IMG/VR virus record: IMGVR_UViG_3300030109_006404
Span: 1-26,985 of that record
Strand: one strand, 5' to 3'
Source: a virus
DNA length: 26,985 bases
Position 1 is the stretch's first letter, and each line of letters begins with the position of its first letter. Positions 12,078 through 24,178 of this stretch are shown in pieces. Below the pieces are notes generated by a model. It saw only the letters and a list, made by a program, of their open reading frames with translations, was not told the origin of the DNA and searched no databases. Made by a program: the position numbers and the translations under genes.

Positions 12078-13197
12078 GAAAAAAGATAAAGGCAAGAGTG
12101 CTAGTGATTTTTCTAGCGAATATTTTAAATCGAATAAGGATGACCATTATAATTTTGCGAAAGCCGCAGAAGAGTATTTAGTCTCCAGTGGGTCTATGTA
12201 TATGGATCACGTTCTTAGCGGTGGATTTGGTGCAGGTCTACATAGATTTATAGGAGCAAATGAAGGTGGTAAAACTAACGCTGCATTACATGTGATGTTT
12301 AACATGTTAAAAAGTGTAAAAAAAGCTAAAGGGTTATTCATAAAAGCTGAAGGTAGATTAAGTAAAGAAATAAAAGAAAGATCTGGGTTAAAATTTGTAT
12401 ATGACCCATCAGAATGGGTCAGTGGAACATGTTTAGTTTTTGAATGTAATGTTTTTGATACTGTAATAGATTATTTAAGAGGTCTTCTTCAGAACAATAG
12501 TGAAGATGAAAGATTTTGCATAATTATAGATAGTATGGATGGAATGATAGCGAAAGATGACTTAGATAAAAGCACTCACGAAGCTAGGAAAGTTGCAGCA
12601 GGAGCTTTAATTACGTCAGATTTCTTAAAAAGAGTCAGTCTTGGAATGTCAAAGTTTGGACATATGTGTATTATGATATCTCAAGTGAGAGCAGCCATCA
12701 AAGCTAGTCAATATACAAAAAACGATCCTAATAATCAAACCAACAGTAGTGGTGGTAATGCTATTTTACATTATCCAGATTGGATTTTAGAATTTAAAAA
12801 AAGAAAACAAGCTGATCTTTTTTTACAAGATTCAGGAGCAACATTAAGTCTTACAAATAAACCTATAGGTCATATAGCGACAGTTCAGATACTTAAATCT
12901 ACAAATGAAACTACTGGCCAAACCGTTCAATATCCAATCAAGTATGGAAGAACAAATGGAAGATCAATATGGGTTGAGAAAGAAGTTATAGACATGCTTC
13001 TTATGTGGTCTTATTTGCAAAAGAGGAGTTCTTGGGTTACAGTGGATTCAACATTACTTGAACATTGCAAGGCAAATAAGTTAGATATGCCTGAAAAATT
13101 TCAAGGTACAAATAAAATCTTAGAGAACCTTGAGGAAAATCCTAAAATTAAAGACATCTTAAAAGATTTTGTACAGAAAGAAATAATGGCTCAATGA
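12070..13197 (+). CDS. RecA/UvsX-like recombinase
   Basis: A 375-residue strand-exchange ATPase. Seen: Walker A G62-A-N-E-G-G-K-T69, Walker B CIIID154 followed by SMDG, an MISQVRAAI block where RecA has its conserved Q that senses the nucleotide and starts the L2 DNA-binding loop, and SSGGNAILHYPDWILEF, the family's A-G-G-N-A-L-x-F block. The N-terminus is lysine-rich and polar, and the C-terminal 90 residues form an extra helical part. Length is between RecA (about 350) and T4 UvsX (about 390). It should form filaments on single-stranded DNA for recombination-dependent replication and repair. An ATGA overlap links it to the nuclease that follows. Which of the RecA or UvsX branches it belongs to needs a tree. 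Confidence 0.85.
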   Translation: MSKKKDKGKSASDFSSEYFKSNKDDHYNFAKAAEEYLVSSGSMYMDHVLSGGFGAGLHRFIGANEGGKTNAALHVMFNMLKSVKKAKGLFIKAEGRLSKEIKERSGLKFVYDPSEWVSGTCLVFECNVFDTVIDYLRGLLQNNSEDERFCIIIDSMDGMIAKDDLDKSTHEARKVAAGALITSDFLKRVSLGMSKFGHMCIMISQVRAAIKASQYTKNDPNNQTNSSGGNAILHYPDWILEFKKRKQADLFLQDSGATLSLTNKPIGHIATVQILKSTNETTGQTVQYPIKYGRTNGRSIWVEKEVIDMLLMWSYLQKRSSWVTVDSTLLEHCKANKLDMPEKFQGTNKILENLEENPKIKDILKDFVQKEIMAQ

Positions 13198-13607
13198 TTT
13201 TCCTTTGTACAAATGGCAGAAAGAAAAAAATAGCAAACTCAGTAAAATACCTAATAGACTGGGATGCTGACTGCAAAAGTGGCATTCAAAAAACAGTAAA
13301 AAATGTTTTATACGACAACTGGTTTGCTGATGTAGTCTTTGAAGAATTTCCAGTTGCAGGTACTAGGTTGACTTTTGATTTTTTTAATGCTACAAGGAAT
13401 ATAGCAGTTGAAGTTGATGGAAATCAGCATTACAAGTATAACAAATTTTTTCACTCTAATTCTAGGCAAAACTTTTTATCTCAACTTAAAAGAGACGAAA
13501 AGAAAGAATATTTTTGTGAAATTAACAATATAGAACTTATTAGAATTTTAGAATCTGAAATAGTTGAGGGCGAATTCCCTAACAAAACTTTTTTAAATAA
13601 TATATAA
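13194..13607 (+). CDS. PD-(D/E)XK-fold endonuclease-like protein
   Basis: A 137-residue protein with a restriction-endonuclease-like core. Seen: D62 in RLTFDFFNA, then E73-V-D75-G-N-Q-H79 in IAVEVDGNQHY, followed by KRDEKKEYFCEINNIELIRI, which is the pattern of DUF559/VSR-like nucleases where D, E and Q/H sit round the metal site. It starts in an ATGA overlap with the recombinase, and the next gene begins one base after its stop. Tight coupling to the recombinase suggests a role in repair or recombination, for instance cutting branched or mismatched DNA. Specificity is not readable. A homing nuclease is unlikely because the gene is neatly fitted into the operon. Confidence 0.6.
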   Translation: MIFLCTNGRKKKIANSVKYLIDWDADCKSGIQKTVKNVLYDNWFADVVFEEFPVAGTRLTFDFFNATRNIAVEVDGNQHYKYNKFFHSNSRQNFLSQLKRDEKKEYFCEINNIELIRILESEIVEGEFPNKTFLNNI

Positions 13608-13608
13608 C

Positions 13609-13833
13609 ATGTCTCTTGTTGAAGAAGAAAGCCTACTACCACAATCCTTGCTACAAAAACTTTATGATTCGACAGGATCATCTACAGGAGGCAATAAAGG
13701 ATTTTTACTTGTTTATGTAAACTCTGAAGGCGATCCCGTTATAAGCGGTAAAACAGAAAACTCTTGTGTAGAAATGGCTTTAACAAAGTTATTAGAATTA
13801 AGTCTTAAGAATGACGAAAGCTTAAGTAGATGA
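13609..13833 (+). CDS. Small protein, 74 residues, unknown function
   Basis: ATG at 13609 follows the nuclease stop by one base and the frame ends in an ATGA overlap with the helicase. The product begins MSLVEEESLLPQSL, has a Ser/Gly-rich turn (TGSSTGGNKG), a beta-like stretch FLLVYVNSEGD and a helical tail. No cysteine cluster, membrane helix or known motif is visible. Its place between recombinase/nuclease and helicase suggests a replication accessory factor, but this is context only. Confidence 0.6.
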   Translation: MSLVEEESLLPQSLLQKLYDSTGSSTGGNKGFLLVYVNSEGDPVISGKTENSCVEMALTKLLELSLKNDESLSR

Positions 13834-15365
13834 TAAATTCACAAAGTATAGAGAAAAATGTTTTAAGCTGCTTGCTTCAGCATCAGCACAAGTGGGAAGA
13901 AGTTGCTTCTTTTTTGACTGAAAGTGATTTTTACAGCACTGACAGCAAAGTAAATGTATCAATATTTAAACTGCTGAAGCATTCTTTAGATAATGCTGAA
14001 AAAATAGATGAACACATCTTGATAGAAAGATTAAATTCTTTAGGTGTTTCTTTTCCAGATAGTATAGACGTATCTGAGTATATTAGATCTATGGCCTTTG
14101 TTCCTACGTCGGAGGACATTTTAATTCCTAATGTAAAAGAATTAAAAAAATATACGGCTAGAAGGCATATATATAACGCTTGTGTAAAAGTCAGTAAATT
14201 TGTAAAATCTATTGATCCTAATATTCCTTATTCAGAAATAGTTGATGAGTGTGACAAAATTTACAATGATCAACTACAACATTTTGAAGTAGGAGAATCT
14301 GAGACTCAGAATCTCTTTGAGCTAATGAGTCCAATCATTGAGGAAAGAGGTAATAATCCTCAAAAGGAATTTGGAATGCTTGGACCTCACAAGAGGCTAA
14401 ACGAGATGTATGGATCTTTACTTTTAGGTGGCAATATTTCCGTCATAGTGGCAAGATCTGGGGTTGGTAAAACTAACTTCTGTATGGATTTCACGACAAA
14501 AGTTTCAAAGCAGTACAATGTACCTGTTCTTCATTTTGACAATGGAGAGATGAGTGAAGAAGAACTAATATTTAGACAGGCTTCTGCTTTAACAGGGTTA
14601 CCTATTTGGCTTTTTCAGACAGGAGAATGGAGAACAAATTCTTATAATAATATTCCTGCTGAAGATATTACCAAAAAAGTTAGAGAAACTTTAGATCAAG
14701 TAAAAGATATGAAGTTTTACTATGAAAACGTTGCTGGAATGACCCCTGATGAAATGTGTTCATTATTAAAAAGGTTTTACTACACAAAAATTGGTAGAGG
14801 CAATCCTTTGATATTTAGTTTTGATTATATTAAAAGTGATTTTTCTAAAATGGGCGACAGTCCTTGGCAACAGGTTTCTTACATGGTTCACAGATTTAAA
14901 CAGGCTATACATAGAGAATTATGCTTTGAGGGAAGTCCATGCGTTTCGATGATAACCTCAGTTCAAGCTAATAGATACGGAATAACAACCAATAGAAATG
15001 CTGATACTATAGTTGACGATGAAAGTGTTGTTTCATTGTCTGACGGTATTACACAATTCTGTTCCCATCTATTTCTTCTTCGAAAAAAAACTTTAGAAGA
15101 GATGCAGGATGATGGTAATAATTTTGGAACACATAAATTGATAAATCTTAAAGCTAGGCATTTAGGAAAAAATCCATTAAGAGCAATAAATGAAGTTGAA
15201 ATGGCTGACGGTTCTAAAAGAAAAAATTTTGTTAATTTAAAGTTTCAAAACTTTGCAATTGAAGAGAAAGGAGATCTTCAAGATGTTGTTAATTTTCAAC
15301 AGGGTAACAGCGTAGCGGTTGAAGCGAATGATGGAGACGAGGTTCCAATGATTTTAAGAATATGA
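13830..15365 (+). CDS. DnaB-like replicative helicase
   Basis: A 511-residue RecA-fold hexameric helicase that would unwind DNA at the phage fork. Seen: an N-terminal helical domain (residues 1 to about 150) beginning INSQSIEKNVLSCLLQ, as in DnaB; Walker A ARSGVGKT at residues 208-215; the DnaB-type block HFDNGEMSEEELIFRQAS (E after the second strand, with the R-Q-A-S pattern); LIFSFDYIK as Walker B; and SMITSVQANRYG, the H4 motif with its Q. LRKKT and a basic KARHLGKN stretch near the end fit the DNA-facing loop and arginine finger region. The acidic C-terminus is extra. It overlaps its neighbours by 4 bases on each side. No helicase loader is recognisable in the window. Confidence 0.85.
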   Translation: MINSQSIEKNVLSCLLQHQHKWEEVASFLTESDFYSTDSKVNVSIFKLLKHSLDNAEKIDEHILIERLNSLGVSFPDSIDVSEYIRSMAFVPTSEDILIPNVKELKKYTARRHIYNACVKVSKFVKSIDPNIPYSEIVDECDKIYNDQLQHFEVGESETQNLFELMSPIIEERGNNPQKEFGMLGPHKRLNEMYGSLLLGGNISVIVARSGVGKTNFCMDFTTKVSKQYNVPVLHFDNGEMSEEELIFRQASALTGLPIWLFQTGEWRTNSYNNIPAEDITKKVRETLDQVKDMKFYYENVAGMTPDEMCSLLKRFYYTKIGRGNPLIFSFDYIKSDFSKMGDSPWQQVSYMVHRFKQAIHRELCFEGSPCVSMITSVQANRYGITTNRNADTIVDDESVVSLSDGITQFCSHLFLLRKKTLEEMQDDGNNFGTHKLINLKARHLGKNPLRAINEVEMADGSKRKNFVNLKFQNFAIEEKGDLQDVVNFQQGNSVAVEANDGDEVPMILRI

Positions 15366-15889
15366 TTATACAAGTAGATATTACTAAAGATATGTTAGAG
15401 GAGGCAGAACATATGACTGCTGAAAATAAAGCTATGTTTGGCATTGGCGGTACTCACCGAAAAGATGTTAAGCGGCAAAAACTCACAGGTTTCTTGGCAG
15501 AAGTTGCTATAAACAGAAGTTTTCCAGATTTATCATATAGTGATAAACTTGCTGTAGATTTTAAATATAAAGGTTACACTTTTGACTCTAAGGCTCAAGG
15601 GTGTAATTCAAAACCTTTAAATTATTATAATGCTACATTGTATGAAGAGCAGAAAAAAAGAGGCACAGATTTTTATATTTTTAATCGCGTAAAAAACGAT
15701 TCTAGTTGCGTGTGGATTTGTGGAATAATTTCAAAACAAAGATTTTTCAATATCGCTAAATTAAAAAAAGCGGGAACAAAGTGCAATAATTTCACTTACA
15801 ACCAAAGTAGATATGAAATTCAATACGAAGATCTAACTGATTTAAGAGAGGCATTAAACTTGCTAAAATCAAACAAAACTGAAGAATAA
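15362..15889 (+). CDS. PD-(D/E)XK-like nuclease-fold protein
   Basis: A 175-residue protein with a weak restriction-endonuclease-like pattern: GFLAE47 in the first helix, a predicted strand with D66 (LAVDFKYKG) and D75-S-K77 (YTFDSKAQG), then an N-K/Y-rich part and YIFNRV as the next strand. E, D and D-x-K in this order fit the catalytic triad plus lysine of small phage nucleases that degrade or nick DNA. It sits between helicase and primase with a 4-base overlap upstream and a 5-base gap downstream. It could be a structure-specific nuclease, or an inactive relative used as a DNA-binding module. Family assignment rests on motif spacing alone. Confidence 0.5.
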   Translation: MIIQVDITKDMLEEAEHMTAENKAMFGIGGTHRKDVKRQKLTGFLAEVAINRSFPDLSYSDKLAVDFKYKGYTFDSKAQGCNSKPLNYYNATLYEEQKKRGTDFYIFNRVKNDSSCVWICGIISKQRFFNIAKLKKAGTKCNNFTYNQSRYEIQYEDLTDLREALNLLKSNKTEE

Positions 15890-15894
15890 AATTA

Positions 15895-16932
15895 ATGAAC
15901 TATAAAGAAGTATTAGAAAATCTTGGATATACCCTAACTGATCATGGGTCTTATTGGAGAACTAACGCTTTATATAGATCTGGAAATAATTCTACAGCCT
16001 TGCAAATCTATAAAGATTCTGGGGTCTGGAAAGATTATGTTGAGGATAGCATGTTTCTACCTTTTGAAGCTCTTGTTCAAAAAACCACAAAAACATCTAA
16101 TGTAAAATCTTTTTTAAAACATTTAAAAACAACTACCTCAAGTGTAAAAACTGAGAAAAAGCTATTGAAAGAAGAAAAAACATATGATCCTGTATGTCTT
16201 AAAAGGCTGCTGCCTCATTATGATTTTTATTTAAATAAAAATATTTCAAGACAGACCCTTTTAGATTTTAAATGCGGCCTAGCTCATTCTGGACCCATGT
16301 ATCAGAGGGTAGTTTTCCCAATATTTAGAGGGGATAATAAAATCCATGGATTTTCTGGTAGGAAAATCACTAAGGATGACAGACCTAAGTGGTTTCATAA
16401 AGGTAAAACAGCTAACTGGTTTTATCCTTACTTTACTATAGATGAAGTTCAAAAACAAATAAGCTTAAAAAAGCAAGTACATATAGTAGAATCCATAGGA
16501 GACTGCATGGCTCTTTATGATCGCGGCATAAAAAACGTTTTAGTTTCTTTTGGTTTAAATATGTCCCCTAAGTTTATTTCAAAATTATCAGGTTTAAATT
16601 TACAAAACATTTATATTTCTTATAATAATGACAGCGAATCAGAAAGAAATAGAGGATTTGAGGGTGCAGTAAAATCCATCTTTAAACTTGCAGACGCGGT
16701 AGATTTTGAAAAAATTTACTTTTGCCCTCCTGATAGCAATGATTTTGGAGATATGACAAAAGAGCAAATATATTTTTATGAAGATCGCTGTTTTTCTGCT
16801 GATCATCAAACCTCAATTCATAAGGTTATATCTATCGCAGAAGATATGGATAAAAGGGGTGTAAATAAATCTTTTTCTCAATCTCTAAAAAAGTTAAAGA
16901 AAAAATACAATTTTTATTATGGGAAGCCATGA
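15895..16932 (+). CDS. DnaG-type primase with TOPRIM core, zinc site degenerate
   Basis: A 345-residue primase that would make RNA primers for the DnaB-like helicase and pol III. Seen: RVVFPIFRGDNKIHGFSGRKI (family R-x-x-F-P-I...G-x-x-G-R block), PKWFHKGKTANWFYPYF, then the TOPRIM strand HIVE199SIGD and a second acidic motif reading N244-N-D246 instead of the usual D-x-D. The N-terminal domain (residues 1-60, with YWRTNALYRS and ALQIYKDSGVWKDYVED) lines up with the CHC2 zinc domain of DnaG but has none of the C/H ligands. Length is well under that of bacterial DnaG, with no helicase-binding C-terminal domain obvious. It overlaps the next gene by 14 bases. Primase identity is fairly secure; the unusual metal sites are noted as findings. 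Confidence 0.8.
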   Translation: MNYKEVLENLGYTLTDHGSYWRTNALYRSGNNSTALQIYKDSGVWKDYVEDSMFLPFEALVQKTTKTSNVKSFLKHLKTTTSSVKTEKKLLKEEKTYDPVCLKRLLPHYDFYLNKNISRQTLLDFKCGLAHSGPMYQRVVFPIFRGDNKIHGFSGRKITKDDRPKWFHKGKTANWFYPYFTIDEVQKQISLKKQVHIVESIGDCMALYDRGIKNVLVSFGLNMSPKFISKLSGLNLQNIYISYNNDSESERNRGFEGAVKSIFKLADAVDFEKIYFCPPDSNDFGDMTKEQIYFYEDRCFSADHQTSIHKVISIAEDMDKRGVNKSFSQSLKKLKKKYNFYYGKP

Positions 16933-17959
16933 GAACAAGCCGTTATCAGCGTCTAGGATAAAAACATTACAAACTTGTTCTTGGCAATACTGGTGCAAAT
17001 ATCATCTAAAACTTCCTGATAGATCAAACGAAGGAAGTCTTCGTGGTACTATATGTCATGCCATTTTTGAAAACCTTGGCAATCCAAGGCACAAAAAACA
17101 TTACACACGTATAATAAAAACGCAGAACACCTACGCTTCCCCACCTATAAAAAGAATGGTTGAGGCTTATGCTAAAAAACACGGTATAGATGATTTTGAG
17201 AATATGGATCTTATTAACCGAATGACTGTTGAGGGTTTGAACTGCGATTTTTTTGGCGCAAAAGATGGAAAACCTACAGAATCTATAAGCGAAAAAGATT
17301 TTGATATTTCTATAACAGAGGATGGTAAAAATTACAGAATTTTAGGATTTATAGACAAGTTATTTCTTTTTAAACGGAAAAGCTTGGCAATAATCAGAGA
17401 CTTCAAGACATCCAAACAAATGTTTTCAGGTAAAGATTTTACAGATAACATACAGAATTTGATGTATTGCTTGGCGGTTAAGCATCTTTATCCAGACTTT
17501 CTTAAAAGACAAATGGAGTTTTTGTTTTTAAAGTTTGATTGTAATAATGAAGGAATGATGAAAATGGAAGGTTTAAAGGAGGAAGAGTTAGAGGGTTTTG
17601 AATATTTCCTTACAGGCGTTCAAGAAATTATTAATAATTTTAATTCAGATTCTGCCACTAAAAATTTAGCTTATGGTAAGGGATACCTAGGAAGAGATGA
17701 CGGTTTTGCAGGTAGAGTTGTTTGTGGCAGAGCAGAGTATGAAGGGCAGTTAAAAAGAGATGGTAGCTTAATGTGGCACTGCCCATTCAAATTCCCAAAG
17801 AAGTTTTATGTGCTTTTGGATAAAAGTGGGGAAGTTTTATCCTCATCGGAAGATAAAAAATCTCTAGATGAAAAGAAAACAAAAGATCATAAAATAGAAA
17901 TGAGAAACTATGAAGGTTGTCCTGCTTTTTCTTTTGACAAGAGTGATGATTTGCTTTAA
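16919..17959 (+). CDS. RecB/Cas4-like PD-(D/E)XK exonuclease
   Basis: A 346-residue nuclease of the PDDEXK_1 type. Seen: LSASRIKTLQTCSWQYWCKYHL (residues 9 to about 30) is the S-x-S-x-[IL]-x-x-[FL]-x-x-C start seen in AddB/Cas4 proteins, followed by GTICHAIFE (family G-x-x-x-H). The catalytic centre is D146 (GFIDK) and D161-F-K163 (IIRDFKTSK), then Q-x-x-x-Y (NIQNLMYCLA) that closes the site. Cysteines 20 and 26 near the start and two more near the C-terminus could hold an iron-sulfur cluster, though the spacing is not the textbook one. It should degrade or resect DNA ends, supplying 3' tails for the recombinase or destroying host DNA. It overlaps the primase by 14 bases. Confidence 0.75.
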   Translation: MGSHENKPLSASRIKTLQTCSWQYWCKYHLKLPDRSNEGSLRGTICHAIFENLGNPRHKKHYTRIIKTQNTYASPPIKRMVEAYAKKHGIDDFENMDLINRMTVEGLNCDFFGAKDGKPTESISEKDFDISITEDGKNYRILGFIDKLFLFKRKSLAIIRDFKTSKQMFSGKDFTDNIQNLMYCLAVKHLYPDFLKRQMEFLFLKFDCNNEGMMKMEGLKEEELEGFEYFLTGVQEIINNFNSDSATKNLAYGKGYLGRDDGFAGRVVCGRAEYEGQLKRDGSLMWHCPFKFPKKFYVLLDKSGEVLSSSEDKKSLDEKKTKDHKIEMRNYEGCPAFSFDKSDDLL

Positions 17960-17968
17960 TATTCAAGT

Positions 17969-18670
17969 GTGATAATTCCACTTTTTAAAACAAGTTACAG
18001 TATTGGTAAATCTCTTTTGAGGGTCGAAGATATAATAGATATAGCTCAAGCAAATAAACTTAAAAAAGTAACTATTGTTGAAGATAACTTTTATGGATTT
18101 AGAACTGCCAACGCCGCCTTTCTTCATGCCAACATTCCCATGGTTTATGGGGTTAGAATCCCAGTTTTTCAAAGTGAATCAGAAAGATCAAGTAGATTAG
18201 TTTTTTTTGCAAAAAATAATAAAGGTCTGAATAATCTTCGAAATCTTTATAGTAAATCAAAATTAAGCGCATTAGAGGTTTTAAATATTTCTAATTTAGA
18301 AGACTCAGAGTTAGAGGATATAAAAATAGGTGTACCTTTTTATGATTCTTATATTTATAACAATATCTTTCATTTTGGCTTGTGCGATCTAAATTTAGAT
18401 AGTTATGACCATTTTTACATGGAAGAGGACAATAATCATCCTTTTGATTTTCAAATTAAAGAAAGATTAGAAAATTTAAATATAAAAACACAAAAAACAA
18501 AAACAATCTACTATAGGAACAGAGAAGATTTTGAAGCTTTTCAAATGTACAAGGCTGTGTGTGCAAGAAAGTTGGGGAAAGTTCCAACATATAGTAAACC
18601 AAATTTAAATGATTTTTGTTCAGACGATTTCTGTTTTGAATCATACTTAGAAAATAATGCTTCCATATAA
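17969..18670 (+). CDS. Stand-alone PHP domain of DNA polymerase III alpha
   Basis: A 233-residue protein equal to the N-terminal PHP domain of DnaE, encoded on its own. Seen: the start IPLFKTSYSIGKSLLRVED lines up with the family's H-x-H-S-x-Y-S-x-L-D-G block; ANKLKKVTIVEDNFYGF matches A-x-x-x-x-x-A-x-T-D-H-x-x-x-x-G; IPMVYGVRIPV matches the P-x-x-G-x-E block; and YYRNREDFEAFQMYKAV matches the end of the PHP part. The metal-binding His residues are replaced (K/T in the first motif, N in the second), so it is probably a structural, inactive PHP. It starts with GTG at 17969, nine bases after the previous stop, and overlaps the proofreading exonuclease by 14 bases. Pol III alpha is therefore a two-protein enzyme here. 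Confidence 0.75.
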   Translation: MIIPLFKTSYSIGKSLLRVEDIIDIAQANKLKKVTIVEDNFYGFRTANAAFLHANIPMVYGVRIPVFQSESERSSRLVFFAKNNKGLNNLRNLYSKSKLSALEVLNISNLEDSELEDIKIGVPFYDSYIYNNIFHFGLCDLNLDSYDHFYMEEDNNHPFDFQIKERLENLNIKTQKTKTIYYRNREDFEAFQMYKAVCARKLGKVPTYSKPNLNDFCSDDFCFESYLENNASI

Positions 18671-19271
18671 TCAAAAATATTTAGTTGTAGACACTGAGAC
18701 TGAGGGTCTTAATTTACATTCTTCTAAAACTTGGCAACTTTCTTGGATTGTTTGTCAAGGCAATAAAATTCTAGAAGAGTATGATAAATTTATAACGCAT
18801 AAAAACCTAAACATCCCAGAAGTTGTTAAAAAAATTACTGGATTTAACTGGGATAAGTATAATGAAAAATCAAAGTCTTTATCAAAGGTTTGGTCTGAAT
18901 TTGAAACATATCTTTATGACCCACAATATATTATAGTAGGACAAAATCTTTTGGGTTTTGATGTTTACATGTTGGCTCTTTTACAAAAAATGCTAGGTCA
19001 ACAACCTGATTATTCTTACTTACCTAGGATTTATGACACAAGAGCTTTAGCTAAAGCTTATAGAGAAAATTTAGAGAAACCTAAAGATAATCTGTTGAGC
19101 TGGCAATATAAATTAATAAATGACAGAAGTTTGAAGGCTAAAGTTTCTCAAGGCACTTTATTAAAATTCTTTGACATTGACCACGATGAGTCTAAATTAC
19201 ATAACGCTCTTTATGACATAAAAAAATGTTTTGAAGTCTTTTGTGAGTTAAAAAGAAGAATGAATTTATGA
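18657..19271 (+). CDS. DnaQ-like 3'-5' proofreading exonuclease
   Basis: A 204-residue DEDDh exonuclease expected to remove misincorporated bases for the adjacent polymerase. Seen: Exo I with D12-T-E14 (VVDTETEGL), Exo II with a conserved N and D102 (VGQNLLGFD), and Exo III with H182 and D187 (LHNALYDIK). All five catalytic positions are present, so it should be active. It is similar in size to the core of E. coli epsilon and lacks a long C-terminal tail. It is placed between the PHP gene and the polymerase gene, overlapping PHP by 14 bases and polymerase by 4 (ATGA). The location recalls PolC, where an exonuclease is inserted in the PHP domain, and E. coli, where epsilon binds PHP. Confidence 0.9.
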   Translation: MLPYNQKYLVVDTETEGLNLHSSKTWQLSWIVCQGNKILEEYDKFITHKNLNIPEVVKKITGFNWDKYNEKSKSLSKVWSEFETYLYDPQYIIVGQNLLGFDVYMLALLQKMLGQQPDYSYLPRIYDTRALAKAYRENLEKPKDNLLSWQYKLINDRSLKAKVSQGTLLKFFDIDHDESKLHNALYDIKKCFEVFCELKRRMNL

Positions 19272-21856
19272 TTTTTGATGACTGTACCATATATGATAAT
19301 TGTGAGCCAGCAGGTGTAGAGTTACCTAAAACTAATATTCCTGATAAAGTTTTAAAGGATTTAGGACTGACTAAAAAAAACTCCAAAATAGATGTATTTA
19401 CAGAACTGTGCGAAAGAGCAATCATAGAAAAAGGAATAGATAAACTTAAGAATAATAAGGTTTATTATAAAAGATGCAATGATGAAATTGCAACTTTAGA
19501 AGAGTTAGGATTTCTAGACTATATTCTTTTAAATTGGGATGTTTTAAATTTTTGTCATGAGAATGGAATACCAACAGGCGCAGGAAGAGGATCTGCCGCT
19601 GGGTCTCTTGTTTTGTATTTACTTGGTGTAACTAACATAGATCCCATACCTCATAATTTATTTTTTGAAAGATTTGTTTCTAAGTCTAGAGCTAAGAGGG
19701 TTACTGATAAAAACGGCAAAGAATTCTTAGTAGGAAGTCTTTTGCCTGATGTTGATTCAGATATATCTTACGACCAAAGGCATAAAGTTATTTCTTATAT
19801 TGAGGAGCAACATAAAGGCAAAACAGCAAAGATACTAACGTTCAATACATTTAGTTCTAAACTTTGTATAAAAGAATGCGTGAAATATTTCGATGAAGCA
19901 TCTGAGGAAAGAGCTATGCGAATATCAGATTCAATTCCAAAGCTTCATGGGCAAGTCCTCGCTTTAGAAGATGCTGCTCAAGAAAGTGAAAAATTTAGAG
20001 AATGGGTTAGGAAAAACAATAAAACATACAAAAACGCTTTAAAGGTTCAAGGTTTACCTAAAAATACAGGAGTACACCCATCAGGTATTGCAATTTGTTC
20101 TCAAAAAATATCAGATGTAGTTCCTCTTCAAAAAACTAAAGATGGAGACTTAGTAACAGGTTACAACATGGATGATGTAGCCGATCTTATGGTAAAGTTT
20201 GACATTTTAGGTCTTAGAACACTCACAATTGCTCATAAATGCTGTGAAAAAGTAAATATTGACATAGAGGATATTGATCCTAATAACTCGTTTATCTATG
20301 ATAAACTTCAATCATTCAGACATCCTGCTGGGTTATTTCAAATTTCTGCTGAAACTAACTTTAGAGTTTGTAAAGATGTAAAACCAGAGAATTTAAATGA
20401 GCTATCCGATGTTATAGCTTTAGCTAGACCAGCCGCTTTAGAGCATGTAAATACTTATATTGAACAAAAAAGAGCATTATCTAAATTAAATCTTCATCCA
20501 GAACTAGATAAAATTCTTTCGTGGTCAAAAAATGTTATCTTGTTTCAAGAACAGATTATGCAAATTGCTAATAAGGTTTTTGGATTTACTTTAGAAGAGG
20601 CGGAAACTCTTCGTAGGATAGTTGGCAAGAAGAAGGTGGACCAAATGCCACAATGGAGGCAAAAGATTTTTGATGCGGCCAAACAAAAAGGGTTAGATGA
20701 GCGTGTCGCAGAATTTTATTGGATATCATTAGAAGCTTCAGCACACTATTCTTTTAATAAGTCTCATAGTTTTGCATATGCAGACTTAGCTGCTAAAACT
20801 GTCTATCTTAAATATAAATATCCACAAGAATTTTTCTTGTCTATACTAGAATGTTCTGAATTTGAACCAGATCCCTTGGAGACTATTAGTTTAGTGAGTC
20901 AAGAATTAAAATCATTTAAAATAGATTTATTACCGCCATGTTTATACAAATCAGACTTTGACTTTAAAATAGAAGGTAGAGATATTAGATATGGATTAAG
21001 ATCTATAAAAGGTGTTTCAGATAAAAACCTAAAAAGCTTAATTGATTTTAGAGGTTTTAAATTTAACAATAGGTATGAAATATTTATGGCTGCTAAGGAA
21101 TGCGGTATCCCTATAAATGTTTTATCTTCTTTAATACAAGCTGGTTTAATGGATAATGCAAAGGAAGATAATTCTAAAAAAGTTAGCAGAAGTAAATTAG
21201 TGCTTGAAGCTCAATCGTTCAATCTTTTAACAGATAGAGAGAAAAGAAATTTTACCAAACAAGCGTCTAGGTTAGGTTATGATATTTTAGACGCTATTCA
21301 ACAGGCTTTATTGAATCGAATAATAGGTGATGATAATAGACAAATCATAACAGAGAGTCGATTTGCAACATTCAAGTCTAAATATTCGAAGTATAGAGAA
21401 ATGTACTATAAAAACAAAAATCATGAAAAATTTGCATCATGGACATATGAGCATAATCTTTTAGGGTTTTCATATTCATGTGATTTAAAAACATGCTTTG
21501 AGAATGATCCAGACATTGATAAATTATATTATTTATCTGAGTTAGAAGATCTAGCAAGTAGAACAAGTTTTTCTTGTGTTGCGGTTGTTAAAAACTTTTT
21601 AACAAAAGAGTCTCAAGCTGGCAATAAGTATATGATTCTTACTGTTTCAGATAATACGGGAACTCACAATATGATGTTTATAGATGCGAGGAATAATCAA
21701 AAATTTACTCAGTTTATGAGATCAAATAAACTTAAAAAAAGTGACGTAGTATTTTTGACAGCGACAAAATCAGATAGTACGTTCTTTATAGAAACTTTAA
21801 AAATAAAAGGCCCAGAGATTTACATGTACAAGAGGCAAGTTAAAAATAAAAAATAA
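19268..21856 (+). CDS. DNA polymerase III alpha, catalytic part without PHP
   Basis: An 862-residue family C DNA polymerase that should be the phage replicase. Seen: GAGRGSAAGSLVLYLLG and NLFFERF (the G-x-G-R-G-S block), catalytic D161-V-D163 in LLPDVDSD, ITFNTF-like KILTFNTF, third catalytic D312 in VKFDILGLRTL, LFQISAE, FQEQIMQIANKVFGF, LRRIVGKKK and FNKSHSFAYADLAAKTVYLK, then a helix-hairpin-helix part (IKGVSDKNL) and a C-terminal OB domain (FSCVAVVKNFLTK...MILTVSDNTG). The N-terminus begins just at the PHP-palm border of DnaE, so the missing domain is the one encoded at 17969. It overlaps the exonuclease by 4 bases; the Clp-like gene begins directly after its stop. I see no clear clamp-binding motif, and no clamp or clamp loader is in the window. 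Confidence 0.95.
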   Translation: MIFDDCTIYDNCEPAGVELPKTNIPDKVLKDLGLTKKNSKIDVFTELCERAIIEKGIDKLKNNKVYYKRCNDEIATLEELGFLDYILLNWDVLNFCHENGIPTGAGRGSAAGSLVLYLLGVTNIDPIPHNLFFERFVSKSRAKRVTDKNGKEFLVGSLLPDVDSDISYDQRHKVISYIEEQHKGKTAKILTFNTFSSKLCIKECVKYFDEASEERAMRISDSIPKLHGQVLALEDAAQESEKFREWVRKNNKTYKNALKVQGLPKNTGVHPSGIAICSQKISDVVPLQKTKDGDLVTGYNMDDVADLMVKFDILGLRTLTIAHKCCEKVNIDIEDIDPNNSFIYDKLQSFRHPAGLFQISAETNFRVCKDVKPENLNELSDVIALARPAALEHVNTYIEQKRALSKLNLHPELDKILSWSKNVILFQEQIMQIANKVFGFTLEEAETLRRIVGKKKVDQMPQWRQKIFDAAKQKGLDERVAEFYWISLEASAHYSFNKSHSFAYADLAAKTVYLKYKYPQEFFLSILECSEFEPDPLETISLVSQELKSFKIDLLPPCLYKSDFDFKIEGRDIRYGLRSIKGVSDKNLKSLIDFRGFKFNNRYEIFMAAKECGIPINVLSSLIQAGLMDNAKEDNSKKVSRSKLVLEAQSFNLLTDREKRNFTKQASRLGYDILDAIQQALLNRIIGDDNRQIITESRFATFKSKYSKYREMYYKNKNHEKFASWTYEHNLLGFSYSCDLKTCFENDPDIDKLYYLSELEDLASRTSFSCVAVVKNFLTKESQAGNKYMILTVSDNTGTHNMMFIDARNNQKFTQFMRSNKLKKSDVVFLTATKSDSTFFIETLKIKGPEIYMYKRQVKNKK

Positions 21857-24178
21857 ATGCTTCAATTACCCTTTACTCCTCACATACAAGGAATTATTCA
21901 AAAATCTAAAGATTTATCGGTAATTTTAGAAAGAAACGGCGTTGATTTAGATATATTCTTTCACTGCTTTGTTAGTGACTTAAGTTTATCTTGTACATCT
22001 ATATTCAAAAAGATTGGAGTTGATTGTGATGAACTTGTAAAAGATTCTAGGAATGTTTTGCATAAAAAAAGAAAAAATAAAAACGTATCTAGCAAGTTTA
22101 AAACGGATACTAGAAAATTTTTAAAGTTTTGTGAGAAACTTTGTAAAGATACTTATTCTTTAGATTATATTCCACCAGAGGTGATATTAATGAATTTCTT
22201 TGATGAGCAATTCACACCTAAAGTTTTAAAGGATTCTTTTCCAGAGGGAGTGGAGGCTGCTGACAGCGTAAGGTTTGGTGTAGTAGCTGAGTGTGCTTTG
22301 GTGATAAAAGATTTTGAAGCTGAGAAAATAGAATCAAAACTAAAAGAACTTGAAGAGACTCCTGATCATTGGATCGATATGTTCGATAACAATGAGATTC
22401 TATCTCAATTTGCTGAAAATCTTAATATAAAAGCTGCCGCTGGAGAGTTTGACAAGATTGTTGATTATGATGGTAAGATAGATGAACTAGCTACAATATT
22501 GTGTAGGAAAAAGAAACCAAATGCTATATTAGTTGGCCCAGCAGGTACAGGTAAAACTTCGCTTGTAGAAGGGTTAGCGACAAAAATAGCAGCAGGAGAC
22601 GCTCCAGAGCTTATAGCTAATAAAGTAATTTATTCTGTTAGTTTATCAAGCATGGTTGCTGGTACTGAATATAGAGGCCAGTTTGAAAAGCGATTAGAAG
22701 ATTTTGTAAATGAAGCTAAAAAATATACAAACTTAATTTTATTTATAGATGAAATACACACTCTAATTGGAGCGGGTGGAGCTAACAACAACTCTCTTGA
22801 AGCTTCTAATATTCTTAAACCAGAATTGGCTAGAGGAACAATAAGTTGTATCGGTGCTACAACTATAAACGAGTATACAAATACAATAAAGAAAGATACT
22901 GCCCTTGATAGAAGATTTGAAAGAGTTGTAGTAAAAGAGCCTTCTAAGTTTCAAATGGAGGAGATTTTACCTACTATTGTTTCTTATTATGAGGCATTTC
23001 ACGCTGTAAAGTATAGCGATGAATTTTTGAATAATATTATTAAGTATTGCGAAAAGTACACTCCAAATAAATATTATCCAGATAAAGCTATTGATGTTAT
23101 AGATCATTGCGGCGCTCAAGCTAAAGTTGCATTTTGGGATGTAAAACCTTCAATCAAAGAAATGCAAACAGAGATAGTTGAATCTGCACTTCATCCAGAA
23201 AAAGATCATTCAGCCTTGATAGAAAAGCTAAATAAGAGTTTAGAAAAGTGGGTCGAATCAGATGAAACAACAAATAAACCAGAAGTAACTGTTTTTCATT
23301 TAAAAGAATTCTTCGATAGAAAAATTAATCCACTAAGTAAAAAGAAAAAAATAAATAAAGTTTTTGATTGTGTTTCTAACTCTTTTGTGGGTCAAGCTAA
23401 CGTGCTTGAGGAGTTAAAACATGAAATAGTTTTAAGTAGTATAGGTGTTAGAACAACTAGAAAGTTTTCTACTCCAGAATGTTATGTTGTGAGTGGTGAT
23501 GACTCTAGCGGCAAATCATTATTTTGTGAGTTGTTAGAAGACTCTTTGCAAAAACATGGAGTAAATGTTTTATCTTATAATGGCATACATTTTTCAGATA
23601 ATTTTTCTCCACATAAAATAGCATCCTCCCAAGGTAACAATACTTCAATCTGCGAAAAGATTGTCATAACGCCAAATAGTGTTTTGATTATAGATGATTT
23701 TCATAAGATAGACAAAACTGCCGTGCCTATTTTTAATCAAATACTCAAAGAGGGTAAAATACAAATGAACAACGGGGATGTTGCTGATTTCTCTAATTGT
23801 AAAATATTTTTAACTAGCTGCTTATCTCATACTAGCCAACTTGGCTTTAATATAGAAAGATCTCGTAATGATGATCCTCTCATACATAAAGATATTTATT
23901 CTTTGATTAAGAACTCTTTTATTTTAAATGAATTAAAAACAAAAGATTTGCGTAGAATTTTGTGGAACAAGCTTAGAAACATAAAAAACAATTTAGAAGA
24001 TAATGGTGTTTACTTGGATTTCACAGTAAAGTATATTTGCACTAATATAAATGATATAAAAAATGACTCTTCGCCAATTAAAAGTTTAAATGAATTAGTG
24101 TTATCAAAAATCAAACCATTTATTTCTGATTGTATAGCTAATGGCAATGATAAAATAAAACTTTTTGTTGAAAAATGA
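21857..24178 (+). CDS. ClpA/ClpC-like AAA+ unfoldase
   Basis: A 773-residue protein with two AAA+ rings. Seen: an N-terminal region like the Clp N-domain (FTPHIQGIIQKSKDL and IFKKIGVDCDEL, residues 6 to about 60); D1 with Walker A G227-P-A-G-T-G-K-T234, Walker B FID298-E299-IH, the substrate-pore EYRGQFEKRL block and the arginine-finger motif LDRRFERV; D2 with Walker A G547-D-D-S-S-G-K-S554 and IID613-D614-FHKID, where the catalytic Glu of Walker B is Asp. No coiled-coil M domain is present, so it is ClpA/ClpC rather than ClpB. L662-G-F664-N follows the FLTSC block, exactly where ClpA/ClpC carry the IGF/VGF loop that docks on ClpP. No clpP is seen here. It starts next to the pol stop. Likely unfolds proteins for host ClpP. 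Confidence 0.85.
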   Translation: MLQLPFTPHIQGIIQKSKDLSVILERNGVDLDIFFHCFVSDLSLSCTSIFKKIGVDCDELVKDSRNVLHKKRKNKNVSSKFKTDTRKFLKFCEKLCKDTYSLDYIPPEVILMNFFDEQFTPKVLKDSFPEGVEAADSVRFGVVAECALVIKDFEAEKIESKLKELEETPDHWIDMFDNNEILSQFAENLNIKAAAGEFDKIVDYDGKIDELATILCRKKKPNAILVGPAGTGKTSLVEGLATKIAAGDAPELIANKVIYSVSLSSMVAGTEYRGQFEKRLEDFVNEAKKYTNLILFIDEIHTLIGAGGANNNSLEASNILKPELARGTISCIGATTINEYTNTIKKDTALDRRFERVVVKEPSKFQMEEILPTIVSYYEAFHAVKYSDEFLNNIIKYCEKYTPNKYYPDKAIDVIDHCGAQAKVAFWDVKPSIKEMQTEIVESALHPEKDHSALIEKLNKSLEKWVESDETTNKPEVTVFHLKEFFDRKINPLSKKKKINKVFDCVSNSFVGQANVLEELKHEIVLSSIGVRTTRKFSTPECYVVSGDDSSGKSLFCELLEDSLQKHGVNVLSYNGIHFSDNFSPHKIASSQGNNTSICEKIVITPNSVLIIDDFHKIDKTAVPIFNQILKEGKIQMNNGDVADFSNCKIFLTSCLSHTSQLGFNIERSRNDDPLIHKDIYSLIKNSFILNELKTKDLRRILWNKLRNIKNNLEDNGVYLDFTVKYICTNINDIKNDSSPIKSLNELVLSKIKPFISDCIANGNDKIKLFVEK

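Follow-up and report, generated by a model that had tools for sequence, protein, structure and literature searches.

The viral DNA analysed here, a window of 26,985 nucleotides (nt) that forms part of a 37,385-base IMG/VR virus record (IMGVR_UViG_3300030109_006404), encodes a DnaE-type alpha subunit of DNA polymerase III (Pol III) that is separated into two genes, one for the PHP domain and one for the polymerase, with the gene for a DEDDh exonuclease located between them. A preliminary description of the sequence had proposed this separation, which is genuine and conserved in relatives. The open reading frames (ORFs) and their Pfam matches confirm the three genes as well as their overlaps of 14 and 4 nt:

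17969..18670, + strand: stand-alone PHP-domain protein, 233 amino acids (aa), GTG start (Pfam PF02811, E value 2e-9)
18657..18670, + strand: overlap of the PHP and exonuclease genes, 14 nt (from the sequence; shared by L002-L005 and many relatives)
18657..19271, + strand: DEDDh 3'-5' exonuclease, predicted proofreader, 204 aa (Pfam RNase_T, E value 5e-12)
19268..19271, + strand: overlap of the exonuclease and polymerase genes, 4 nt, ATGA stop/start (from the sequence)
19268..21856, + strand: DnaE-type family C polymerase without PHP, 862 aa, palm-thumb-fingers-HhH-OB (Pfam DNA_pol3_alpha 1e-58, finger 1e-33, HHH_6 1e-13)

We consider it probable that the arrangement goes back to an ancestral DnaE of a phage that was divided close to the end of PHP, the gene of a DEDDh exonuclease now lying between the halves, and that the PHP protein now acts as a catalytically dead structural subunit, which would bind the polymerase in trans. 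The exonuclease would then provide the proofreading that is no longer possible at the PHP site, and the translational overlaps may help to coordinate the production of the three proteins.

The division of DnaE and its conservation

The position of the cut was located with a DnaE profile of 1071 positions, for which both fused and concatenated sequences were used. On this profile, the PHP protein extends over positions 4-243 and the polymerase over positions 260-1070; on PHROG 405, which represents the full phage DnaE, the corresponding ranges are 50-262 and 313-1082. The cut thus lies at about residue 250-260 of Escherichia coli DnaE, varying with the alignment, and within the last helices of PHP. 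Since the first approximately 20 residues of the polymerase (..CEPAGVELP) still align to the PHP tail, the boundary is located slightly before the palm and not, as first described, exactly at the PHP-palm border. The claim that no part of DnaE was lost at the split holds in so far as the two halves give a nearly complete DnaE, but about 16 profile positions are unaccounted for.

Searches of IMG/VR with each of the three proteins as query yielded relatives down to about 36% polymerase identity. PHP, exonuclease and polymerase are encoded as separate ORFs in the same order in 205 loci, none of which is fused; some of the underlying contigs were fetched more than once, seven stem from genome assemblies, and together they represent 68 lineages at <90% polymerase identity. 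The search with the polymerase only, which is unbiased as to gene arrangement, yielded all three genes in 76 of 80 loci, the remaining 4 being cut at a contig end, and PHP is present in every viral locus that extends far enough upstream. In a tree of 69 polymerases, the 27 split representatives form one clade (support 100/100), and such a single clade, every member of which is split, fits a single fission. The gene order is universal in the clade and overlaps are common, but not universal: some members have intergenic gaps of up to 3.4 kb, most of them with unrelated genes, at the PHP/exonuclease or the exonuclease/polymerase junction.

No member of the clade was found among the 50,697 phage records of INPHARED, where the best polymerase matches are about 32% identical and the matches that were inspected carry a fused DnaE or a dnaE split at other places; tblastn searches of phage records with the PHP protein and the exonuclease of the window gave no match. 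The viruses with the three-gene set are uncultivated bacterial viruses and make up a large group of wide distribution. Genome bins with the gene set include several labelled Flavobacteria, which weakly points to Bacteroidota hosts.

Properties of the three proteins

The polymerase is of the DnaE type of family C. It is matched by NCBIfam DnaE models with E values down to 2e-136, and its AlphaFold2 model (pLDDT 88.2) resembles DnaE (Foldseek E value 5e-39) more closely than PolC (2e-16 at best). Its active site is intact, D161, D163 and D312 being invariant in 55 sequences and aligned with E. coli DnaE at its PDFDVD and VKFDFLGL motifs. Pfam places palm, fingers and HhH in this order, and the OB fold is C-terminal, represented by a beta-rich module at residues 767-846 of the model with weaker OB-fold Foldseek matches. 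The chain carries no PHP domain, which is a separate ORF in the 205 loci, and ends soon after the OB fold in the model. A C-terminal tau-binding domain, which is poorly conserved and could be missed (PMC3919608), was not seen, and a clamp-binding motif could not be placed with confidence.

In two distant members, L006 (5986-9867) and L122 (7641-11634), an additional break interrupts the polymerase, in both at one and the same site (SFNK|C...N|SHS). Weak Pfam Intein_splicing/Hint matches identify this break as a split intein, the two halves being separated by a free-standing homing-endonuclease-like gene. The arrangement resembles the published 'fractured gene' type, and L113, a near relative, is without it.

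For the PHP protein, AlphaFold2 gives a confident model of one complete, compact domain (pLDDT 90.3, pTM 0.88). Its best match in the PDB is E. coli Pol III alpha (2hnh, E value 6e-12), and the alpha-epsilon chimera 4gx9_B is matched with a TMq of 0.77. All of the top 20 structural matches are family C polymerases or the alpha-epsilon chimera, which points to a polymerase-type PHP fold; Pol III alpha and the chimera rank first, PolC lower and free-standing PHP enzymes lower still. A search of the PDB with the PHP profile at the sequence level gave chance matches only. Because the PHP domain begins at residue 2, the protein has no N-terminal OB fold of the PolC kind.

Active PHP domains possess nine metal ligands, HHDHEH[C/H]DH (PMC12926913). 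In the window, these positions read LKE-RRFTY, and across 27 split representatives 0-1 of the nine ligands are kept, i.e. the metal-binding motif of an active proofreader is absent and the metal site is lost in the split clade. With 7 invariant columns in 68 rows, the PHP alignment is more variable than that of the polymerase. All three genes are under purifying selection, the dN/dS ratio of PHP (0.036-0.135) being like those of the exonuclease and the polymerase, and these values rule out PHP as a decaying relic. According to published surveys, PHP is universally present in family C polymerases (PMC12926913). It is often inactive in these replicases, and its role there is understood only in part (PMC12926913, PMC3666897). 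In E. coli, its integrity has an effect on how stable and how active Pol III is (PMC3666897).

The site of the exonuclease, like that of the polymerase, is intact. An alignment of 42 exonucleases has ten invariant columns, and these include the whole DEDDh set (D12, E14, D102, H182 and D187).

Known arrangements and neighbouring genes

The window shares the polymerase core, the PHP fold and the C-terminal OB fold with DnaE-type Pol III alpha of E. coli, Thermus and phages, in which, however, PHP is part of the same chain and not a separate polypeptide. The closest parallels to the cut itself are Gordonia phage Suzy (gp64/gp65) and Microbacterium phage Hiddenleaf (gp58/gp59), whose annotated dnaE is split near the PHP-palm border with the PHP part upstream. 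They differ in having no exonuclease gene between the parts and an intact PHP metal site (HHEHEHCDH), and their cut is located approximately 25-35 residues further on (E. coli ~283-287). In P1201, phiST, phiT1, KLEB27-3 and MVC_VPHSA2, dnaE is also found in two genes, but the cut lies in the palm or fingers and PHP remains joined to one part of the polymerase. In Cellulophaga phage phiST (L357, 41632-45232), the N-terminal half of the palm-split dnaE ends with a tail of about 50 residues that looks, by eye, like an intein remnant.

DnaQ exonucleases are known as insertions in PolC, as N-terminal fusions in some Bacteroidetes DnaE1 or as separate proteins (PMC12926913, PMC3919608). Bacteroidetes DnaE1 combines DnaE and an exonuclease domain with a disrupted PHP metal site, as in the window, but in one chain and with the exonuclease N-terminal to PHP via a linker (PMC3919608). 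In Pbunavirus LMA2 (ORF56/ORF55), the gene of an annotated 3'-5' exonuclease overlaps dnaE and the PHP site is degenerate (RRDDEKEDP); there, the exonuclease gene precedes an unsplit DnaE. PHP/polymerase splits as such, without an exonuclease, are already known from two cultured actinophages. The literature searched yielded no phage DnaE divided such that PHP forms a protein of its own, nor did it yield the combination of a dead stand-alone PHP and an exonuclease gene between the parts throughout a clade of this size and diversity.

The three genes are preceded by the helicase, primase and nuclease genes of a conserved replication module and followed by an ATPase gene, each supported by synteny:

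13830..15365, + strand: DnaB-like helicase (PHROG 19, E value 2e-31)
15895..16932, + strand: DnaG-like primase (PHROG 47, E value 3e-20)
16919..17959, + strand: PD-(D/E)XK nuclease, conserved module gene located upstream of PHP (Pfam PF12705, E value 3e-15)
21857..24178, + strand: ClpA/ClpB-like AAA+ ATPase, directly downstream of the polymerase (TIGR02639 ClpA, E value 5e-102)

The PD-(D/E)XK nuclease gene precedes PHP in those listed members whose contig includes that flank. Part of the clade has the ClpA/ClpB-like unfoldase immediately behind the polymerase; it was not seen in the deep-branching members compared. Between the UvsX-like recombinase and DnaB, the window contains a small DUF559/Vsr-like nuclease (13194-13607), which is similar to phage homing endonucleases and is retained at this place in several members. 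A 175-aa protein (15362-15889) to which no function was assigned precedes the primase, and relatives of it are located between PHP and exonuclease elsewhere (L183:2004-2522; L193:4844-5308).

Other genes were observed inside the three-gene set of individual lineages. A conserved protein of 65-86 aa (MASLDDIYD...KGK...KADVFY) without a Pfam match is encoded between exonuclease and polymerase in one subclade (L145:5724-5939; same place in L148, L191, L176, L156, L198, L178, L215, L146, L161 and L194) and represents a candidate small fourth subunit. Between PHP and exonuclease, we found a 121-aa SET-domain-like protein (L113:6752-7117; L006:5011-5376; E value 6e-4, below the Pfam cut-off) and, in three lineages, a gene that by eye resembles GMP reductase/IMP dehydrogenase (L115:6759-7736; L216:4392-5366; L227:6311-7294).

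Alternative explanations and meaning

A comparison with the L007-like phages of IMG/VR bears on the proposed exchange of proofreading functions. These phages have the same DnaB-primase-PD-(D/E)XK module ahead of the polymerase, but their PHP is fused to the polymerase and its site reads HHEHEHCDH or nearly so; an exonuclease gene was not found among the neighbouring genes. In the records as a whole, an exonuclease of the RNase_T type (PF00929) was detected in 11 of 16 split records, in each case at a single place, as against 1 of 16 records of the fused L007-like phages. Variant PHP sites accompany separate proofreaders in bacteria (PMC3666897), and the pattern seen here agrees with this view; it is suggestive of PHP proofreading and a separate DEDDh exonuclease replacing each other.

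The three proteins most likely assemble in trans into a Pol III core, in which the PHP protein would associate with the polymerase and the exonuclease would serve as the proofreader of this polymerase; the order of the evolutionary events is inferred in the same way. Several points weigh against this interpretation. The structure models cover single chains, so that the complex rests on inference. The PF00929 model missed the exonuclease in 5 of the 16 split records although the gene is present, i.e. it understates this exonuclease, and its absence in the fused relatives is for this reason only moderate evidence. Since, in addition, the polymerase tree does not show the L007 group as the nearest relatives of the split clade, the comparison is not proof. 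Finally, the exonuclease ends 17-18 residues past the last catalytic Asp in 42 of 42 members and is thus without the C-terminal tail by which Pol III epsilon binds alpha/PHP (PMC3666897); the likeness to E. coli epsilon bound to the PHP of DnaE, to which the preliminary description had appealed, is a weak analogy for this reason. It is conceivable, though we regard this more specific version as tentative, that PHP is an obligate stand-alone subunit, that the exonuclease docks by an interface unlike that of epsilon and that both constitute a detachable proofreading module held non-covalently on the polymerase.

An unlikely alternative is that the PHP protein and the exonuclease act as a proofreading or repair pair apart from the phage polymerase, e.g. 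on the host replicase, and that the polymerase manages without PHP. The intervening genes, which show that joint production of the three proteins is not required, and the higher variability of PHP would be in line with this. However, the PHP protein and the polymerase complement each other to a nearly complete DnaE, PHP is missing from no viral locus that reaches far enough upstream, and its universal presence in family C polymerases and its importance for stability (PMC12926913, PMC3666897) argue against a polymerase that dispenses with it.

A relation to Gram-positive PolC, in which PHP, DEDDh exonuclease and polymerase are all present in a single chain, appears very improbable. According to this explanation, the arrangement would be an intermediate or a fission product, the exonuclease being derived from that of PolC and the gene order keeping the PolC layout. 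Indeed, the exonuclease has its best NCBIfam match in a PolC model (E value 2e-11) and its top PDB sequence match carries a PolC-type annotation, but DnaQ models match it as well. In PolC, the exonuclease is inserted inside PHP, at position 75 of the DnaE profile and some 170 positions away from the split in the window (between 243 and 260), and the OB fold is N-terminal (PMC3919608), whereas PHP and polymerase of the window are DnaE-like with a C-terminal OB fold. The idea of an intermediate between DnaE and PolC, raised on the first inspection, fails on this insertion point.

Even less probable is a programmed frameshift that would join two or all three products in a single chain: the 14-nt and 4-nt overlaps, which lie in different frames, speak for it, but it is excluded as a general mechanism because gaps of up to 3.4 kb, mostly with other genes, separate the same genes in some members. 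A sequencing or assembly error in one continuous dnaE gene can be practically dismissed, as we found no point in its favour and the related contigs show the same boundary in 205 loci with the exonuclease gene between the halves and no fused version.

The clade represents a natural test of PHP function, since PHP has been cut off and its metal site erased and yet the gene is under purifying selection. A structural role of PHP can be tested here by adding or omitting one protein, without any engineering of the polymerase, and the clade parallels, among phages, the trade-off that has been proposed between proofreading by PHP and by a DEDDh exonuclease.

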